From NCBI GenBank assembly GCA_022562795.1, contig JADFOP010000067.1, positions 1 to 6,042 of the forward strand: a DNA stretch of 6,042 nt. The letters are read 5' to 3'. Below are positions 1 through 6,042 of the stretch, one piece after another. Positions within the stretch are counted from its first letter, which is position 1. Every line of letters starts with the position of its first letter. Source of the DNA: Nitrospinota bacterium. Lineage in GTDB: Bacteria > JADFOP01. The notes below the pieces were generated by a model that saw only the letters and a list, made by a program, of their open reading frames with translations, had not been told where the DNA came from and did not search any database. Made by a program: the position numbers and the translations under genes.

Positions 1-378
1 ACTGAAACCTGAGCCTTTATATTGCTGAGGAAATAGAAATCAAAGGAGTATAGTTAAAACGTCAGAATTCAACGAAGAAAATTTTGCTGTATACTCCCTC
101 CGACCACCCTCCCATCCCACGGGTCACTAAACAATATAAACTCTTCCATGCCTCCGTGTCTAGTCCAAAAATCATTTTCCTACGCTCGGAGAGCAATTTT
201 TTTCAATTACAGGGTCCATGTTCCAATGATCAAGATTGAGTATGGGCAGGCCCCGACACGATGACTTGATAACGGCAAATTGTCCAACGAGATAGGGCTA
301 AAAGACTTAGGCCTTTAGCTCCATACGGGGTGGGATAGGACGGTCGAGACAGTTACGGTTTATAAAGACGCTTCCGGG
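1..378. other. AT-rich intergenic stretch without a gene
   Basis: No reading frame with a credible start, RBS or protein-like composition is seen on either strand. The stretch is visibly richer in A and T than the genes that follow. It is the 3' side of the minus-strand formyltransferase. I see no convincing intrinsic terminator for that gene: a GCTAAA/TTTAGC stem around 298-320 is not followed by a T-run on the minus strand. An 8-bp inverted repeat, GGAGTATA at 45-52 and TATACTCC at 90-97, is present, as is a very short GCTC/GAGC hairpin followed by seven T (184-203) on the plus strand. Neither can be assigned a function. Confidence 0.6.
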
Positions 379-1338
379 TCACGAGCCCAGTCGCGCTCCC
401 GGACCGATGTGATGTCGCCGGGCAAATTCTCCGGCCCCAAGCTCCTCCTCGCCGTCCAACTGGAGGGAAATCACCTGCAAGGCACCCTCACCCGAAGCAA
501 CCACAATCGCTTCGTCTGAGTCTACCCCGATAACCTCTCCAGGGTGTTGCCCTTGAACTTCATCCTGCAGGTCGCAAACTTCGCCCCACCAGACGAAGAG
601 CTTCCGTCCATTGTGGAACGTAAAAGCTCCAGGATAAGGATGTGTTACGGCCCGGATGAGATTGTAGATCGCGCGGGCAGGCTGAACCCAGTCAATCTTT
701 CCATCCGCAGGTGTCCTTCGACCAAAGTAGCTCGATAGGGAATGATCCTGTGGGATACGGGGTGCCCGGCCCGATTTTTTGAGGGGCCAAGTTTCACGAA
801 AGAGCTCACGTGAAGCTTCCGTCATTTTATGGTGTAGGGAAATGGCGGTGTCCGTATCGCTAATGGTAACAACCCGTTGGGAGATAATCTCGCCTCGATC
901 CGCCTTTGCCTCCATATAATGAAGGGTCGCCCCCGTTTCGGTCTCCCCGTTGACCAAAACCCAATTGACCGGCGCTCGTCCCCGGTACTTGGGAAGGAGC
1001 GAGCCGTGGAGGTTGATGCAACCACGGGGGGGGATGGCCAAGATATCGGGGGAGACGATCTGGCGGAAAGCCAAGGAAAAAAGGATGTCCGGCTGGAGGG
1101 CCATCAAGCTACTCACAAAGATCGGCTTGTTGACGTCGTTCGGGGTATGGACCGGAATAGAATGAGTCCGGGCCAGCTCAGCGACGGACCGGTACCAACC
1201 GTTCTCGTTGGGATCGTCGTGGTGCGTCACCACAGCGACAACCTCCTCACCTGCCTTAATGAGCTCCTCAAGACAGACGTAGCCCACCTCATGATAACCC
1301 AAAACAACCACCCTCCTAGCTGTGCTCCTCTCTCTCAT
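379..1338 (-). CDS. ArnA-like formyltransferase (formyl-THF dependent, sugar-nucleotide type)
   Basis: A 319-residue cytosolic enzyme predicted to transfer a formyl group from N10-formyltetrahydrofolate to the amino group of a nucleotide-linked amino sugar. It aligns along its whole length with the N-terminal formyltransferase domain of ArnA (UDP-4-amino-4-deoxy-L-arabinose formyltransferase) and more distantly with Met-tRNA formyltransferase. Seen: an N-terminal Rossmann start (residues 9-40), the INLHGSLLPKYRGRAP signature at 108-123, catalytic Asn109, His111 and Asp147 (equivalent to Asn102, His104 and Asp140 of E. coli ArnA, a constant offset of 7), the FGRRTPADG motif at 205-213 and a C-terminal OB-like part. 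The ArnA dehydrogenase domain is absent, so this is the stand-alone form. I chose the ATG at 1338 over the GTG at 1344 because a GAGG sits five bases before the ATG and nothing suitable precedes the GTG. It lies 20 bases behind the TPR gene, probably in one transcript. The exact sugar substrate is unknown. Confidence 0.9.
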   Translation of the reverse strand: MRERSTARRVVVLGYHEVGYVCLEELIKAGEEVVAVVTHHDDPNENGWYRSVAELARTHSIPVHTPNDVNKPIFVSSLMALQPDILFSLAFRQIVSPDILAIPPRGCINLHGSLLPKYRGRAPVNWVLVNGETETGATLHYMEAKADRGEIISQRVVTISDTDTAISLHHKMTEASRELFRETWPLKKSGRAPRIPQDHSLSSYFGRRTPADGKIDWVQPARAIYNLIRAVTHPYPGAFTFHNGRKLFVWWGEVCDLQDEVQGQHPGEVIGVDSDEAIVVASGEGALQVISLQLDGEEELGAGEFARRHHIGPGARLGS

Positions 1339-1340
1339 CC

Positions 1341-1347
1341 TCACCTC
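1341..1347 (-). promoter_or_regulatory. RBS of the formyltransferase gene
   Basis: On the minus strand the sequence GAGGTGA precedes the ATG at 1338. Its GAGG core is five bases from that ATG, whereas the in-frame GTG at 1344 overlaps this motif and cannot use it. This decides the start. The site lies between the stop of the TPR gene and the formyltransferase, consistent with translation from a shared mRNA. Confidence 0.6.
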
Positions 1348-1358
1348 ATTGTAAGCGA

Positions 1359-2195
1359 TTATTCATTAAAATGGCCTATAGCGTGCCTTCCTTGATGTGA
1401 CCGAGTTTCCAGAAGAACCTGAATTTGGTGTTGATTAGAATTCAGCCGTAAGGATTCCTGCCAACAGGAACGTGCCTCCTCGGATCTGCCTGCTTCCTGG
1501 AGCCACGCACCTAGCTCGTTTAAGGCCGGCACCTGGAATCGGCCGAACAGAGGATTGAGCTCGAGGCTTTCCACGAGCCGGGCAATGGCGTCTGGCGTAT
1601 TGCCGAGGAAACGGTATAGGCGGGCCAGATTAAACTGGGCCTCGGAGTGGAAGGGCTCCAACCCCATGGCCCGGCGGAGGACACCGACGGCGTCGCCAAA
1701 ACGCCCTCTGGCGCAGTAGACATTGGCGAGGCCGCTTAACACGTAGCCGTCATCGCCGAAGATGGCCAGAGCCTCCAGGACGTATCGTTCGACCTCGTCC
1801 CAATCGCTCCGTTCGGTTGCCAGCAGGGCCATGTACTTCGACATCTGGTAATTAAGACACGCCGTTAGGGCTTGTCTTCTCTCAGGACCTGAAGGGTGGT
1901 CAATATAAGCCTTACTTATCTCAAGGCAAAATCGGTCGTAGGCGATGGGGAGGTAAGGACCTTCCAGGTCGGAATCGCTGAGGCCCTCCTCAGCCAAAGC
2001 TCTAAGGGCCTCCTCGGTCTGGCGGCGGGCCTCTTCGGCTGAAATCACCCCTCCGCGCTCTCCCATGTGGGCCGTTGCGAGGTTGCACCGGGCAAGAGCG
2101 AATGAGGGCCTGAGAGCCAGGGCCCTCTCAAAAGACTCCAGCGCCATCGATAAATCGCCCTCCAGGGAGGCCGCCACCCCTTGGGCGTTTATCAC
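1359..2195 (-). CDS. TPR-repeat protein, possibly 5'-truncated
   Basis: A 278-residue protein built of tetratricopeptide repeats, which form helical scaffolds for protein-protein contacts. Repeats are seen at about residues 2-33 (GVAASLEGDLSMALESFERA), 150-182 (LANVYCARGRFGDAV), 184-216 (LARLYRFLGNTPDAI) and 222-254 (LGAWLQEAGRSEEAR), with a degenerate helical region between 50 and 148. No signal peptide or membrane segment is seen, so it is probably cytosolic; the partner is unknown. The only usable start in frame is the GTG at 2195, which has a weak RBS. The frame stays open upstream to a stop at 2322-2324, and residues translated from about 2196-2264 still look protein-like. The true N-terminus may therefore have been lost where the divergent epimerase gene begins. 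It precedes the formyltransferase in the same direction with a 20-base gap, suggesting an operon. Confidence 0.75.
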   Translation of the reverse strand: MINAQGVAASLEGDLSMALESFERALALRPSFALARCNLATAHMGERGGVISAEEARRQTEEALRALAEEGLSDSDLEGPYLPIAYDRFCLEISKAYIDHPSGPERRQALTACLNYQMSKYMALLATERSDWDEVERYVLEALAIFGDDGYVLSGLANVYCARGRFGDAVGVLRRAMGLEPFHSEAQFNLARLYRFLGNTPDAIARLVESLELNPLFGRFQVPALNELGAWLQEAGRSEEARSCWQESLRLNSNQHQIQVLLETRSHQGRHAIGHFNE

Positions 2196-2258
2196 CCGTG
2201 GGCTCTCGCCCCATGAGGCACGGTAATTGCTGATAAGAGCTAGCGGAATGAGCTGGTA

Positions 2259-2266
2259 GGGAGGAG
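2259..2266 (+). promoter_or_regulatory. RBS of the SDR-aminotransferase fusion
   Basis: GGGAGGAG is followed by seven bases and then the GTG at 2274. This is a strong Shine-Dalgarno at ideal spacing and supports GTG as the original start of the epimerase gene. No clear sigma70-type promoter is seen in the 78 bases between the divergent starts. Confidence 0.65.
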
Positions 2267-2273
2267 CGAGCTT

Positions 2274-3131
2274 GTGCAGAGGGTTCTTGTAACAGGCGGA
2301 GCAGGTTACCTGGGCTCCATATTATCTCGGCGGCTCGTGGACAAAGGCTACGAAGTCTTGTGTCTCGACCGGCTCTATTTCGGAGATAAGCCCGTGGCCT
2401 TGCTTCTCGGCCACCCGAACTTCCAGCTCGTCCAAGCCAATATCGTCGACATCGCCGACCACGCCGAGCTCATGGAGGGCGTGGACGCCGTCATCCACCT
2501 GGCGGGCCTGGCCTACGACCCGTCTTGCGACCTCGACCCAGCAACGCTGAATATCGACCCGGAGGCCATAGAGGCGGCGATCACCGAACGAACCAAGGCC
2601 ATCATTCCCGTCCATATGGCCGGCTTTCCCTGCGACCTCGACCGGATTCACGCCGTGGCCCAAGGCCACGGACTAGCCGTGGTCGAAGATGCGGCCCACG
2701 CCCTAGGGGCGCAATACAAGGGCGAGAAGATCGGGGCGATCAGCGAATTCACCTGCTTTAGCTTCTACCCTGTTAAGAACATCACCACCATCGAGGGAGG
2801 TGCGTTGGCCACAAACAACGCCGAGTGGGCCGAGACAGCCCGCCTCTACAGCCTCCACGGGATAAGCCGAGACGCCTGGAAGCGATACCAGCCCGGGGGC
2901 TCCCTTCATTGGGAGGCTCTTGGCGCCGGGGTTCAAGTACAACATGTCCGATATCCAGGCCTCATTGGGCATCCACCAGCTTCCCAGGCTCGACTCATTC
3001 ATCGCCACGAGGCGCCGCCACGCGGAGCGATACCGGGAGGCCTTTGCCGCCCTGCCCGAGATCGAGACGTTTTTTCAGGAGGCCAACGGCGTCCTTCACG
3101 CCCACCACCTATTCATCATCGCCCTCAGTGA
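2274..3131 (+). CDS. Chimeric ORF: SDR NAD-binding segment plus middle of a DegT aminotransferase
   Basis: This 285-codon frame starts at GTG after a strong RBS. Residues 3-14 (RVLVTGGAGYLG) carry the SDR glycine motif, followed by the acidic turn near Asp32 and VIHLAGLAYDPSCDLDP at 73-89, typical of extended SDR epimerases. From residue 92 (LNIDPEAIEAAITERTKAIIPVH) it matches DegT/ArnB aminotransferases: EDAAHALGA at 138-146 with the Asp139 that contacts the PLP ring nitrogen, and SFYPVKNITTIEGG at 163-176 with Lys168 as the expected Schiff-base lysine. The frame leaves the aminotransferase after Glu214. Residues 215-285 are out-of-frame translation, rich in Pro, Arg and His, and mean nothing. 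As written it should not fold as either enzyme. Confidence 0.6.
   Translation: MQRVLVTGGAGYLGSILSRRLVDKGYEVLCLDRLYFGDKPVALLLGHPNFQLVQANIVDIADHAELMEGVDAVIHLAGLAYDPSCDLDPATLNIDPEAIEAAITERTKAIIPVHMAGFPCDLDRIHAVAQGHGLAVVEDAAHALGAQYKGEKIGAISEFTCFSFYPVKNITTIEGGALATNNAEWAETARLYSLHGISRDAWKRYQPGGSLHWEALGAGVQVQHVRYPGLIGHPPASQARLIHRHEAPPRGAIPGGLCRPARDRDVFSGGQRRPSRPPPIHHRPQ
2529..2543 (+). other. Fusion junction between SDR and aminotransferase sequence
   Basis: Around codons 86-90 (Asp-Leu-Asp-Pro-Ala) the protein switches family. In SDR epimerases the segment 'DPxCDLDP' is followed by a Thr-x-x-Asn helix. In DegT proteins 'DIDPxTLNIDPEAIE' precedes the segment seen here. Both therefore share an Asp-Leu/Ile-Asp-Pro stretch at this very point, which would give a short DNA similarity (GACCTCGACCC here) suitable for a deletion or for an assembler to collapse. 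The family boundaries are from memory of the families and the exact base cannot be fixed. Confidence 0.6.
2916..2919 (+). other. Frameshift site (one extra base) in the aminotransferase
   Basis: Up to codon 2913-2915 (Glu214) the aminotransferase is in the frame of the GTG at 2274. From TTG at 2920 it continues (LAPGFKYNMSDIQASLG) in the next frame. Four bases, GCTC, stand where one codon is expected; removing one gives the family-like 'HWE-x-LAPGFKYN'. No slippery homopolymer or downstream pseudoknot is evident, so a mutation or sequencing error is more likely than programmed frameshifting. Confidence 0.75.
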
Positions 3132-3438
3132 CGGAATGCTTAATATCGACAGGGACGGCCTGATGGAAGCCCTCAAGGCAGAAAACATCGCGACGGGCGT
3201 ACACTTTCGCTCGCTCCACATCCAGCCCTACTACCGGGAAACCTTCGGCTATCGCCCAGAGGACTTTCCCCGCGCCCTGGACTTAAACAACCGGATCCTC
3301 TCCCTCCCCCTCTACCCGACCATGACGTACCAAGACGTCGAGGACGTCATCAGGGCGGTCACAAAGCTCGTCCGCTTCTACCGGAGTGCGAAGCCCTCAA
3401 GGGTAGAGAGGTGTAAAAAGGAGAGGGTGGCCCAATGA
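2920..3438 (+). CDS. C-terminal part of DegT/ArnB-family aminotransferase (out-of-frame fragment)
   Basis: This 172-codon frame carries the rest of the aminotransferase. GFKYNMSDIQASLGIHQL at about residues 4-21 is the strongly conserved DegT segment after the PLP lysine. It continues through the small C-terminal domain with TGVHFRSLHIQPYYRETFGY (about 92-111), ILSLPLYPTMTYQDVEDVI (about 127-145) and a basic tail. The family forms homodimers that transaminate nucleotide-linked 4-keto or 3-keto sugars using glutamate. The TTG at 2920 is only the first permitted start codon after the shift; there is no RBS before it, so independent translation is unlikely. It belongs to the gene whose earlier part lies in another frame just upstream. 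The TGA at 3436-3438 abuts the terminator of the convergent methyltransferase. Confidence 0.65.
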   Translation: MAPGFKYNMSDIQASLGIHQLPRLDSFIATRRRHAERYREAFAALPEIETFFQEANGVLHAHHLFIIALSDGMLNIDRDGLMEALKAENIATGVHFRSLHIQPYYRETFGYRPEDFPRALDLNNRILSLPLYPTMTYQDVEDVIRAVTKLVRFYRSAKPSRVERCKKERVAQ

Positions 3439-3470: not shown

Positions 3471-3505
3471 CTAGGCAGGCGCCCGCCTCTCAAGGAGGCG
3501 GTCGA

Positions 3506-4126
3506 TTACTTGTTGTTCGTCGCGAAGACGACGTGCCAGAGGTCTAGTTTCTTAATCTGGTAGCAATTGTCGATGGCCAGGTCGGCGGTCTCGGCCAAGT
3601 CCGACAATTTGATGTCTGACCTCCAGCCTAGGAATCGGCAGGCTGGAGCCACCCACCTCTCAAGCGTCCCGATCACCTTGTTCTTCTCGTTTTGAAAATG
3701 GTTGACGATTACGAGGTTTCCTTCGGGCTTCAGCACACGCTTCATCTCGCTGATGGTGCGTACCGGGTCGGGAACGACCGAAATTACGAAGGTCGCCAGG
3801 ACGTGGTCGAAGCTGTTATCGGCGAAAGAGAGTTGCTGGGCGTCCATCTCAAGGAGGTTTACTTGCGTGAGAGCGAGCTCCTCGACCTTGCGCCTGGCCT
3901 TGGCTAGCATATTGCCGGAGAGGTCGATGCCGATGACTTCGCAGTCCTTCGGATAGAGGGGCAATGTGAGGCCGGTGCCCACGCCCACATCGAGCACACG
4001 TTGGCCGGACCGAATGTTCATGGCCTCGATGACGTGCTTCTGGCGTGGGCTGAAAAACCACTTGAAGACGTAATCGTAGATATTCGACCACGCGGAGTAA
4101 GTTTTCTTAATCTTCTCAACGTTCAT
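3506..4126 (-). CDS. SAM-dependent methyltransferase, PmtA/UbiE-like
   Basis: A 206-residue class I methyltransferase. The closest pattern I recognise is the PmtA-type phosphatidylethanolamine N-methyltransferase, which methylates PE stepwise toward phosphatidylcholine at the inner membrane face; UbiE-like quinone methylases are the alternative. Seen: motif I VLDVGVGTGL at 44-53, the acidic end of strand 2 in IGIDLS at 65-70 (Asp68, ribose contact), MDAQQLSF at 94-101, the PmtA-like FVISVVPDP at 113-121, MKRVLKPEG at 128-136 and VNHF at 141-144. Length fits PmtA (about 200 residues). The N-terminal YSAWSNIYDYVF (10-21) is the usual amphipathic entry of these enzymes. The ATG at 4126 has GGAG six bases upstream, so the start is secure. 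It stands alone, convergent with the broken aminotransferase and divergent from the 184-residue gene. Family assignment is strong; the lipid substrate is inferred. Confidence 0.85.
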   Translation of the reverse strand: MNVEKIKKTYSAWSNIYDYVFKWFFSPRQKHVIEAMNIRSGQRVLDVGVGTGLTLPLYPKDCEVIGIDLSGNMLAKARRKVEELALTQVNLLEMDAQQLSFADNSFDHVLATFVISVVPDPVRTISEMKRVLKPEGNLVIVNHFQNEKNKVIGTLERWVAPACRFLGWRSDIKLSDLAETADLAIDNCYQIKKLDLWHVVFATNNK

Positions 4127-4230
4127 CGCGCACTCCGTCTTCAGGCTCCGTCAGGCGACAAAACGCAGCACTCTCGAAACGAGAACGATGCTATCGTATA
4201 TGGACAGACTATTAAAGAAACCCAGGTGCG

Positions 4231-4277
4231 CCTTCGTGGAACTTGTCTTCCGCTGAAGGGGTTTCGGTACTTCCACG
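4231..4277 (+). other. Overlapping alternative hairpins in the divergent intergenic region
   Basis: Within the 249 bases between the methyltransferase and the 184-residue gene, 4231-4241 (CCTTCGTGGAA) pairs with 4248-4259 (TTCCGC, one bulged T, GAAGG), an 11-pair stem with a six-base loop. The same left arm, CGTGGAA at 4235-4241, also pairs perfectly with TTCCACG at 4271-4277, so the two folds exclude each other. The element lies upstream of the predicted promoter of the next gene, so it would be in an RNA only if another promoter exists. I cannot assign a function. Confidence 0.35.
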
Positions 4278-4282
4278 CGGGA

Positions 4283-4321
4283 CGTTACCATACCATCAGC
4301 ATTTTTGCAACGTTTTTTTTG
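4283..4321 (+). terminator. Weak terminator-like structure with T-run
   Basis: ACGTT at 4283-4287 can pair with AACGT before a run of T ending near 4320, with a nested GCA/TGC mini-hairpin between. The stem is short and AT-rich, so terminator strength is doubtful. It would matter only if a transcript enters from the left through the hairpin region at 4231-4277. Confidence 0.25.
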
Positions 4322-4327
4322 GCGCCC

Positions 4328-4357
4328 TTGTCACGGAGCTCTGAGGTGGTTTATTAT
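4328..4357 (+). promoter_or_regulatory. Sigma70-like promoter of the 184-residue gene and probably tRNA-Gln
   Basis: TTGTCA (4328-4333, five of six consensus bases) is followed after 18 bases by TATTAT (4352-4357, five of six). Transcription would start near 4364, leaving a leader of only about 12 bases before the ATG at 4376. That leader consists almost entirely of the RBS GAGAGGG (4366-4372). Confidence 0.6.
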
Positions 4358-4375
4358 GTAACGCCGAGAGGGATT

Positions 4376-4930
4376 ATGGGCGACAACGACGCGAGAGTTG
4401 AGCGGCTAGACCCGTACGAGACTTACGGGCTCCAGCGCATCCCGAAAAGCCGGGCCGAGTCCTTAGAAGCGCTCCAGGCCGAGTTTCACCGCGAGATCGC
4501 ACGCCGAGCTGGAGCGTACGGGAGCCGGCTCGCAGAGCTCTTCGAAGCCCTCGAGGGGGCTCGGCAAACCTTCGAGGCGGGCCTTGGGGAGCTGGTGGAT
4601 TCCGTTCTAAGAAGGCTCGGTCCTCAGGCCGCCCGGTGGTCTTGGGGCGAGCTCATCGCCGGCATCGAGGCGCTTCCCCCGAAGCGAGGGGCGACGCTGG
4701 CCCAAGGCGTGCGGGCCGTCGAGCGGTCCGCCGAGCTCCACGTGGGACTGAGGGCTCAGGCGGAGGGTGTCCGCCACCACCTCATCATCCACCGCGAGGC
4801 GATGGGTTTCCGCCGCCACCACCTGGTCGATGAGAAGTTCCCGCTCCCGGCGGCTCTGCCGCAGGTTGAGGCGGCCTGGCGCCAAGCCCGCGCCGGGCTG
4901 AAGGAGAGCAGGCCCAAAGTATCGATATAG
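4376..4930 (+). CDS. Hypothetical protein, helical, 184 residues, upstream of tRNA-Gln
   Basis: I do not recognise a family. The ATG at 4376 is preceded by GAGAGGG and a well-placed promoter; the frame is open further left, but only by running antisense through the methyltransferase, so I start here. The protein is soluble, with no signal peptide or membrane segment. Residues 25-85 (RAESLEALQAEFHREIARRAGAYGSRLAELFEALEGA...) look like one or two long amphipathic helices able to form a coiled coil. Residues 88-100 hold a Trp-containing helix. A His/Arg-rich segment, RHHLIIHREAMGFRRHHLVD at 133-152, is the most distinctive part and is followed by the proline-containing KFPLPAALP (154-162) and a last helix. 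The balanced codon use and clear signals suggest a real gene. The stop is three bases before tRNA-Gln, so both are probably made in one transcript. Confidence 0.65.
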   Translation: MGDNDARVERLDPYETYGLQRIPKSRAESLEALQAEFHREIARRAGAYGSRLAELFEALEGARQTFEAGLGELVDSVLRRLGPQAARWSWGELIAGIEALPPKRGATLAQGVRAVERSAELHVGLRAQAEGVRHHLIIHREAMGFRRHHLVDEKFPLPAALPQVEAAWRQARAGLKESRPKVSI

Positions 4931-4933
4931 CGC

Positions 4934-5007
4934 TCCCCGGTCGTCCAATGGCAGGACCCCAGACTTTGGATCTGGTGATGGAGGTTCGAATCCTCCCCGG
5001 GGATCCA
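4934..5007 (+). tRNA. tRNA-Gln (anticodon TTG), CCA encoded
   Basis: A full cloverleaf is seen: acceptor 4934-4940 with 4997-5003 (seven pairs), D stem GTCC/GGAC at 4943-4946 and 4954-4957, anticodon stem CCAGA/TCTGG at 4959-4963 and 4971-4975, loop CTTTGGA with anticodon TTG at 4966-4968 (reads CAA, and CAG by wobble), T stem GGAGG/CCTCC around the loop TTCGAAT at 4985-4991, discriminator T at 5004 and an encoded CCA at 5005-5007. All stems pair without mismatch, so it should be functional. It starts three bases after the stop of the upstream gene and therefore needs 5' processing from that transcript or an internal promoter. Confidence 0.96.
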
Positions 5008-5132: not shown

Positions 5133-5161
5133 TTGCCAAATTACACCGCCTGTACTATTAT
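5133..5161 (+). promoter_or_regulatory. Sigma70-like promoter of the cold-shock gene
   Basis: TTGCCA (5133-5138) and TATTAT (5156-5161) each match five of six consensus bases and are separated by the optimal 17 bases. Initiation near 5168 would give an untranslated leader of about 135 bases. Long leaders are a known trait of regulated cold-shock mRNAs. Confidence 0.7.
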
Positions 5162-5200
5162 AGGGGTAGCAGGAGATAGACTTGGTAGGAACGATAGGGA

Positions 5201-5249
5201 CGACAGACCACCGCACAGGCGTCTGTTGTGAGCCGTGCGGTTTATTTAT
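5201..5249 (+). promoter_or_regulatory. Leader with mutually exclusive hairpins, attenuator-like, ahead of the cold-shock gene
   Basis: One fold pairs ACCGCAC (5210-5216) with GTGCGGT (5235-5241) and, past one bulged A, GGC (5218-5220) with GCC (5232-5234). It is followed by TTTATTTAT, so it looks like an intrinsic terminator. A second fold pairs ACAGAC (5203-5208) with GTCTGT (5221-5226), extended by a G-T and a C-G pair. The folds are likely to exclude each other: the second encloses the left arm 5210-5220 in its loop and uses the loop of the first. A third small stem, CTCGT (5265-5269) with ACGAG (5282-5286), ends directly before the Shine-Dalgarno. Together this resembles an attenuator or temperature-sensitive leader. 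Function is inferred from structure alone. Confidence 0.45.
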
Positions 5250-5287
5250 CGCCCGCCGGTCCGTCTCGTGAGCAAAATCCAACGAGG

Positions 5288-5295
5288 GGAGGTGA
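5288..5295 (+). promoter_or_regulatory. RBS of the cold-shock gene
   Basis: GGAGGTGA is a perfect match to the anti-Shine-Dalgarno and stands eight bases before the ATG at 5304. The same frame is open upstream to 5235, but this RBS and the family's N-terminus (MxxGxVKWFN) fix the start at 5304. Confidence 0.85.
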
Positions 5296-5303
5296 GCGGC
5301 AGG

Positions 5304-5510
5304 ATGGAGAAAGGACGAGTAAAATGGTTCAACGAGAGCAAGGGCTTTGGCTTCATCGAGCGTGAGGACGGGCCGGACGTCTTCGTCCATTTCTCGGCAA
5401 TCCAGGGTGAGGGCTATAAGTCTCTGGCCGAAGGCCAGGCCGTGGAGTTCGAGGTAATCGAAGACACAAAGGGCTTAAAAGCCATCAACGTGGCGAAGGT
5501 CGCCGAGTAA
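5304..5510 (+). CDS. CspA-family cold-shock protein
   Basis: A 68-residue single cold-shock domain, the usual length for the family. Such proteins bind single-stranded RNA or DNA through one face of a five-stranded beta barrel and act as RNA chaperones in the cytoplasm, either during cold adaptation or constitutively. Seen: GRVKWFN at 4-10 (Trp8, Phe9), RNP1 KGFGFI at 13-18 and RNP2 VFVHF at 26-30, with the aromatic nucleic-acid-binding residues Phe15, Phe17, Phe27, His29 and Phe30 all present, then EGQAVEFEV (43-51) and KGLKAINV (56-63). The gene is monocistronic: it has its own promoter, a long structured leader and a strong terminator 11 bases after the stop. Whether it is truly cold-induced cannot be told from the protein, but the leader would suit post-transcriptional control. 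Confidence 0.96.
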
Positions 5511-5551: not shown

Positions 5552-5578
5552 CATATCTGCAATCATCCGCCCCGTATT

Positions 5579-5608
5579 CGGAAAATCGCGGAAAATCGCG
5601 GAAAATCG
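5579..5608. repeat. Three tandem copies of a 10-bp unit (CGGAAAATCG)
   Basis: CGGAAAATCG occurs three times without interruption, at 5579-5588, 5589-5598 and 5599-5608. The copies are identical. The 10-bp period is close to one helical turn, as in some protein-binding arrays, but with only three copies and no neighbouring gene or origin signal no role can be assigned. Replication slippage is the simplest origin. Confidence 0.8.
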
Positions 5609-5727
5609 GGCCGTCAGGGAGCTTGAACGGTCAATGGGGCAATCTCCCCTATTTGTGAATAACATGGGCTGGACGACCTGCAGGGACATGTGATTTACCC
5701 CTATCCGTGGGTTTTCTCATCCGTGTA

Positions 5728-5903
5728 GTCGGGCCGACTCCGCCTAAGGCGGACTTGCGACCCAGCCCCCTTGGGGGCTTGCCCCACTGCCTGCAGCACC
5801 CCGACACCAACAAACCCTGTAGGGACAGGGCCGACCAAAGGTCGCTTGCGACTCCCTGTCCGCAAAGAAAACCCGGACAGCCTAAATCCGCCTCAGGCGG
5901 ACT
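5728..5903. repeat. Cluster of nested palindromes (REP/MITE-like)
   Basis: Several inverted repeats follow each other. The unit TCCGCCTAAGGCGGACT (5739-5755) returns as TCCGCCTCAGGCGGACT (5887-5903), one mismatch in 17. Between them lie AGCCCCC/GGGGGCT (5764-5779), CCCTGT/ACAGGG (5815-5820 with 5825-5830), GGACAGGG/CCCTGTCC (5823-5830 with 5854-5861) enclosing GTCGC/GCGAC (5841-5852), and GTCGGG/CCCGAC (5728-5733 with 5800-5805). There is no coding content. The structure resembles extragenic palindromic elements that are dispersed in many genomes, but copy number elsewhere cannot be seen from here. Confidence 0.6.
5819..5831. repeat. Direct repeat GTAGGGACAGGGC, copy 1
   Basis: The 13 bases recur exactly at 6023-6035, about 200 bases downstream. 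Similarity continues loosely beyond both copies (CGACCAAAG against GGCCAAG). The first copy forms the left arm of the hairpin with CCCTGTCC at 5854-5861. The second is cut off by the window end, so its partner arm cannot be seen. Confidence 0.7.
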
Positions 5904-5917
5904 ACATTTTTAAATAT

Positions 5918-5937
5918 AAAAAAACAGGCGGGCCTGT
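5918..5937 (-). terminator. Terminator-like hairpin, minus strand
   Basis: Read on the minus strand, ACAGGC and GCCTGT (5924-5929 and 5932-5937) form a short stem followed by seven T (plus-strand A-run 5918-5924). It could end a minus-strand transcript entering from beyond the right edge of the window. The stem is short, so the call is tentative. Confidence 0.4.
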
Positions 5938-5964
5938 CGTCACGCACTTCCCGTACTTCCTTTA

Positions 5965-5990
5965 CTTCCCGAATGGGGAGCGATTTTTTT
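5965..5990 (+). terminator. Terminator-like hairpin, plus strand
   Basis: CTTCCC (5965-5970) pairs with GGGGAG (5975-5980, one G-T pair) around the loop GAAT, followed by CGA and seven T (5984-5990). No gene on the plus strand lies between the cold-shock terminator and this point, so it is either spare or marks the end of an untranslated RNA from the repeat field. Confidence 0.4.
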
Positions 5991-6022
5991 GCTTGATCCG
6001 ATGGTTTTGGGGGGAATCCCGC

Positions 6023-6035
6023 GTAGGGACAGGGC
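6023..6035. repeat. Direct repeat GTAGGGACAGGGC, copy 2
   Basis: Exact copy of 5819-5831. It is followed by GGCCAAG at the window edge, so the element probably continues to the right and may include a matching CCCTGTCC arm like that of the first copy. Confidence 0.7.
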
Positions 6036-6042
6036 GGCCAAG

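Follow-up and report, generated by a model that had tools for sequence, protein, structure and literature searches.

The window, a stretch of 6,042 bases that makes up the whole of contig C67 (genome of 2.15 Mb in 84 contigs, 97% complete), holds at positions 2274-3131 of the forward strand an open reading frame in which the start of an SDR epimerase continues into the middle of a DegT/ArnB aminotransferase. We consider it probable that this locus is a recent pseudogene, shaped by a deletion and a frameshift, inside a nucleotide-sugar island. Compared with intact relatives, the region as assembled carries two inactivating lesions, a large missing block and a change of frame. The SDR-DegT remnant is thus most likely an ordinary dead gene rather than a new enzyme, and the reading frame should not be annotated as a fused epimerase-aminotransferase; it has little importance beyond annotation.

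The frame encodes 285 amino acids from a GTG start, with a plausible ribosome site, GGGAGGAG, upstream. Its residues 4-91 match the Pfam Epimerase family PF01370 (profile 1-86 of 240, E 1e-13) and residues 85-206 the DegT family PF01041 (profile 91-212 of 360, E 1e-51), both far beyond chance. The first part (2274-2528, plus strand) is the N-terminal third of an extended, NAD-dependent epimerase/dehydratase of the SDR type; among full-length relatives, identity with their SDR half reaches 56% at most. This part contains the Gly-rich nucleotide-binding motif GGAGYLG at residues 8-14. The catalytic Tyr-x3-Lys and the substrate domain are absent: profile positions 87-240 are missing, and an alignment gap covers the region. 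The second part (2541-2919, plus strand) is the middle of a DegT/ArnB-type PLP aminotransferase, at most 63% identical to its relatives; no nearer relative was found for either part. EDAAHALGA and the Schiff-base lysine motif SFYPVKN are both present; the N-terminal ~105 residues of the aminotransferase (profile 1-90) are missing. The sequence-only reading had divided the protein in this way, with an SDR start carrying GGAGYLG at residues 1-88 and DegT/ArnB sequence with EDAAHA and SFYPVKN from about residue 92, and the profiles agree with it, the DegT match beginning at residue 85.

That reading closed the feature at 2920, where the fusion frame indeed ceases to be DegT, but it missed the frameshift that explains this end. 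The C-terminal half of the aminotransferase follows at once in a different frame of the same strand (2920-3438; PF01041 profile 216-359 of 360, E 2e-36). The P0002 matches follow one frame as far as 2891 and resume in another at 2905; together with the open reading frames they place the point where the aminotransferase leaves the fusion frame at 2905-2922 (plus strand). The 285-aa frame therefore ends in ~70 residues that are not DegT sequence, and the full-length domain of ~360 profile positions is split, with positions 91-212 and 216-359 in different frames. Programmed frameshifting was considered and rejected: 2905-2922 shows no obvious slippery run, and such a mechanism would not restore the missing N-terminus anyway.

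The two families meet at Asp-Leu-Asp-Pro (2529-2540, plus strand), a motif present at the corresponding place in both; the SDR match ends at 2540 and the DegT match begins at 2529. The proposed switch at a common Asp-Leu/Ile-Asp-Pro is thereby confirmed. Relative to all full fusion reading frames compared (eleven listed, ten of them distinct, as L050 and L128 are identical), the window is short by 353-354 codons, or ~1,060 bp, at this one place. Alignment with four of these frames gives a single clean internal gap, which starts and ends at Asp-Leu/Ile-Asp-Pro.

The DNA equivalent to the two breakpoints was compared in four relatives. In L132 and L139, 10 of 12 bases agree, and the identical stretches measure 9 and 8 bases; in L050 and L140 the agreement is weak. 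The suggestion that a short shared DNA stretch could have driven the deletion thus finds a match at DNA level in two of the four relatives and not in the others, and it is plausible that the window's own ancestor had a short direct repeat there. A 13-base repeat in the window itself, TGCGACCTCGACC (at 2527 and 2632), was rejected as the deletion repeat, since its second copy lies downstream of the junction.

A shared run of 8-9 bases suits a microhomology deletion. It is short for a k-mer assembly collapse, being far below the k-mer lengths usual in assembly, and this bears on the main rival to the pseudogene: that the organism has both complete regions, the assembler skipped ~1 kb and a base error created the frameshift. 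The locus is indeed known from a single assembly of one genome, in 84 contigs, and the contig ends in repeats. Nevertheless, no intact copy and no fragment with the missing piece was found elsewhere in this 97%-complete assembly, which yielded distant paralogues only. The frameshift would moreover require a second, unrelated error, and the remaining main genes on the contig have uninterrupted frames of the length expected. We regard an assembly error as unlikely.

As a pseudogene, the locus would have descended from a complete SDR epimerase/dehydratase region followed directly by a complete DegT/ArnB aminotransferase, whether these were neighbouring genes or a single fused one. About 1,060 bp would have been deleted, most likely through slippage or end-joining at a short direct repeat that codes for Asp-Leu/Ile-Asp-Pro. 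The SDR would have lost its final two thirds and the aminotransferase its first ~105 residues, with the reading frame preserved across the joint. An independent small indel near 2905-2922 would have disrupted the aminotransferase a second time, and the remnant, with neither enzyme activity, would be a recent pseudogene. Judging from what the two families require, both activities should be lost, because the SDR is mostly gone and the aminotransferase has lost ~105 residues at its N-terminus, with its C-terminal half out of frame. The decay is probably recent: at least 92% of 71 relatives agree in each of 19 DegT columns, and the window, with its two DegT pieces taken together, has the conserved residue in all 19.

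These intact residues, with the frame open across the junction behind a plausible ribosome site, could also be read in favour of a working chimera. The short frame would then be translated as a stable protein and kept by selection, for example as a nucleotide-sugar binding or regulatory protein made of a dinucleotide-binding part and a PLP-binding core. Against this, the SDR catalytic part and the N-terminal third of the aminotransferase are absent, the frameshift removes its C-terminal half, and no relative of the same truncated form was found. Such a chimera appears very improbable. Among the three explanations offered at the outset, an inactivating deletion, a real chimera and an assembly collapse, the first is the best supported: relatives have both domains complete, one block of 353-354 codons is missing, and the frameshift adds weight.

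The comparison with related genomes that had been proposed as a check does recover complete SDR and DegT regions, both as adjacent genes and as one-piece fusions. In the 59 other genomes of wide range that were searched, the DegT relatives mostly have open frames of ~370-420 aa, and no gene of the window's truncated form is listed among these 59. A complete SDR lies directly upstream of a complete DegT, in the same order, in L007 (4-nt overlap), in L005 and on the Pantoea plasmid L141 (genes touch). In Candidatus Hydrogenedentota, L050 (627-2801) encodes one protein of 724 aa in which both SDR and DegT are complete. Of 68 genomes searched in that phylum, at least 48 contain a colinear match over almost the full length of this fusion. 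A normal family with a full-length fusion, named beforehand as grounds for abandoning the idea of a deletion, thus exists, but its members have all of both domains and do not explain the truncated form in the window.

The pseudogene may have had such a fused gene as its ancestor, in which case the deletion was internal to one gene. The best SDR match (56%) and the best DegT match (63%) are both in Hydrogenedentota fusions, where sampling is however deepest, and the frame kept across the joint fits a fused ancestor. In a DegT tree of 72 rows, by contrast, the fusions make up a single clade (100/100). The window is placed outside this clade, and a stand-alone enzyme is its nearest neighbour in path length; constraining the window to group with the fusions gives a tree that the AU test does not reject (p-AU 0.31). 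We therefore view a fused ancestor as possible, with some reservation. The verdict of a pseudogene is unchanged by the choice between a fused and an adjacent ancestor.

The right part of the window, from a methyltransferase to tRNA-Gln (3492-5007), is conserved at 76% identity and in the same order in one same-genus genome (G001), so the contig belongs to this lineage. Within it, a reading frame at 4378-4930 has no Pfam or NCBIfam match; it is conserved in G001 (L044:8392-8994), again beside the methyltransferase and tRNA-Gln. Further right, a cold-shock domain gene (5155-5510) is also conserved there, and its 5' region is repeated at 82% on contig C42. The end of the contig lies inside an intergenic repeat family (5567-6042) with palindromic TCCGCCTNAGGCGGA units and several copies in the same genome (contigs C12, C42 and C55).

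The left part, with a formyltransferase, a TPR protein and the SDR-DegT remnant, looks like an accessory nucleotide-sugar island. At the corresponding place in G001 the right-hand flank alone is retained and the island has no counterpart; this genome was for that reason rejected as a picture of the state before the deletion. The formyltransferase gene (379-1344, minus strand) is apparently intact and sugar N-formyltransferase-like, of the ArnA N-terminal domain type (Formyl_trans_N and Formyl_trans_C; NCBIfam PRK06988 above cut-off), a type that would fit a pathway with an SDR and an ArnB-like aminotransferase. The TPR-repeat protein (1359-2195, minus strand; Pfam TPR matches) is possibly short at its N-terminus. 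Its frame is open upstream of the first listed start, to 2321 (2196-2321, minus strand), overlapping the beginning of the SDR remnant; this gene, too, may have lost its first part. On contig C43 (L043:9496-9914), regulator genes enclose a second, more eroded copy of the island's left flank. It consists of window positions 1-298 at 91%, then 42 bases, then positions 1404-1481 at 87%; it is without the formyltransferase and retains only the end of the TPR gene. This copy suggests decay in the region, with duplication and loss around the island more generally.

Among known systems, the Hydrogenedentota fusions (L050, L132-L140) contain the same two families in the same order as the window, with identities of 40-56% for the SDR and 53-63% for DegT. 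They differ in having both domains complete, in ~725 aa, whereas the window has 353-354 codons fewer and is frameshifted. The adjacent SDR and DegT/ArnB genes of L007, L005 and the Pantoea plasmid likewise share the order and strand of the window, touching or nearly so; in these nucleotide-sugar clusters they are two complete genes, and in the window a truncated remnant. Bacterial pseudogenes derived from deletions at short direct repeats resemble it in both respects, a junction in sequence common to both ends and a frame-breaking indel. From these we see no evident difference, the in-frame joint being a one-in-three outcome. The locus illustrates clearly that two touching genes of one pathway can come to look like a gene fusion through a deletion between them. 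The genuine fusion of these families at full length, for which a literature search returned no report, stands in contrast to it: kept across most genomes of one phylum, it is the more interesting object.
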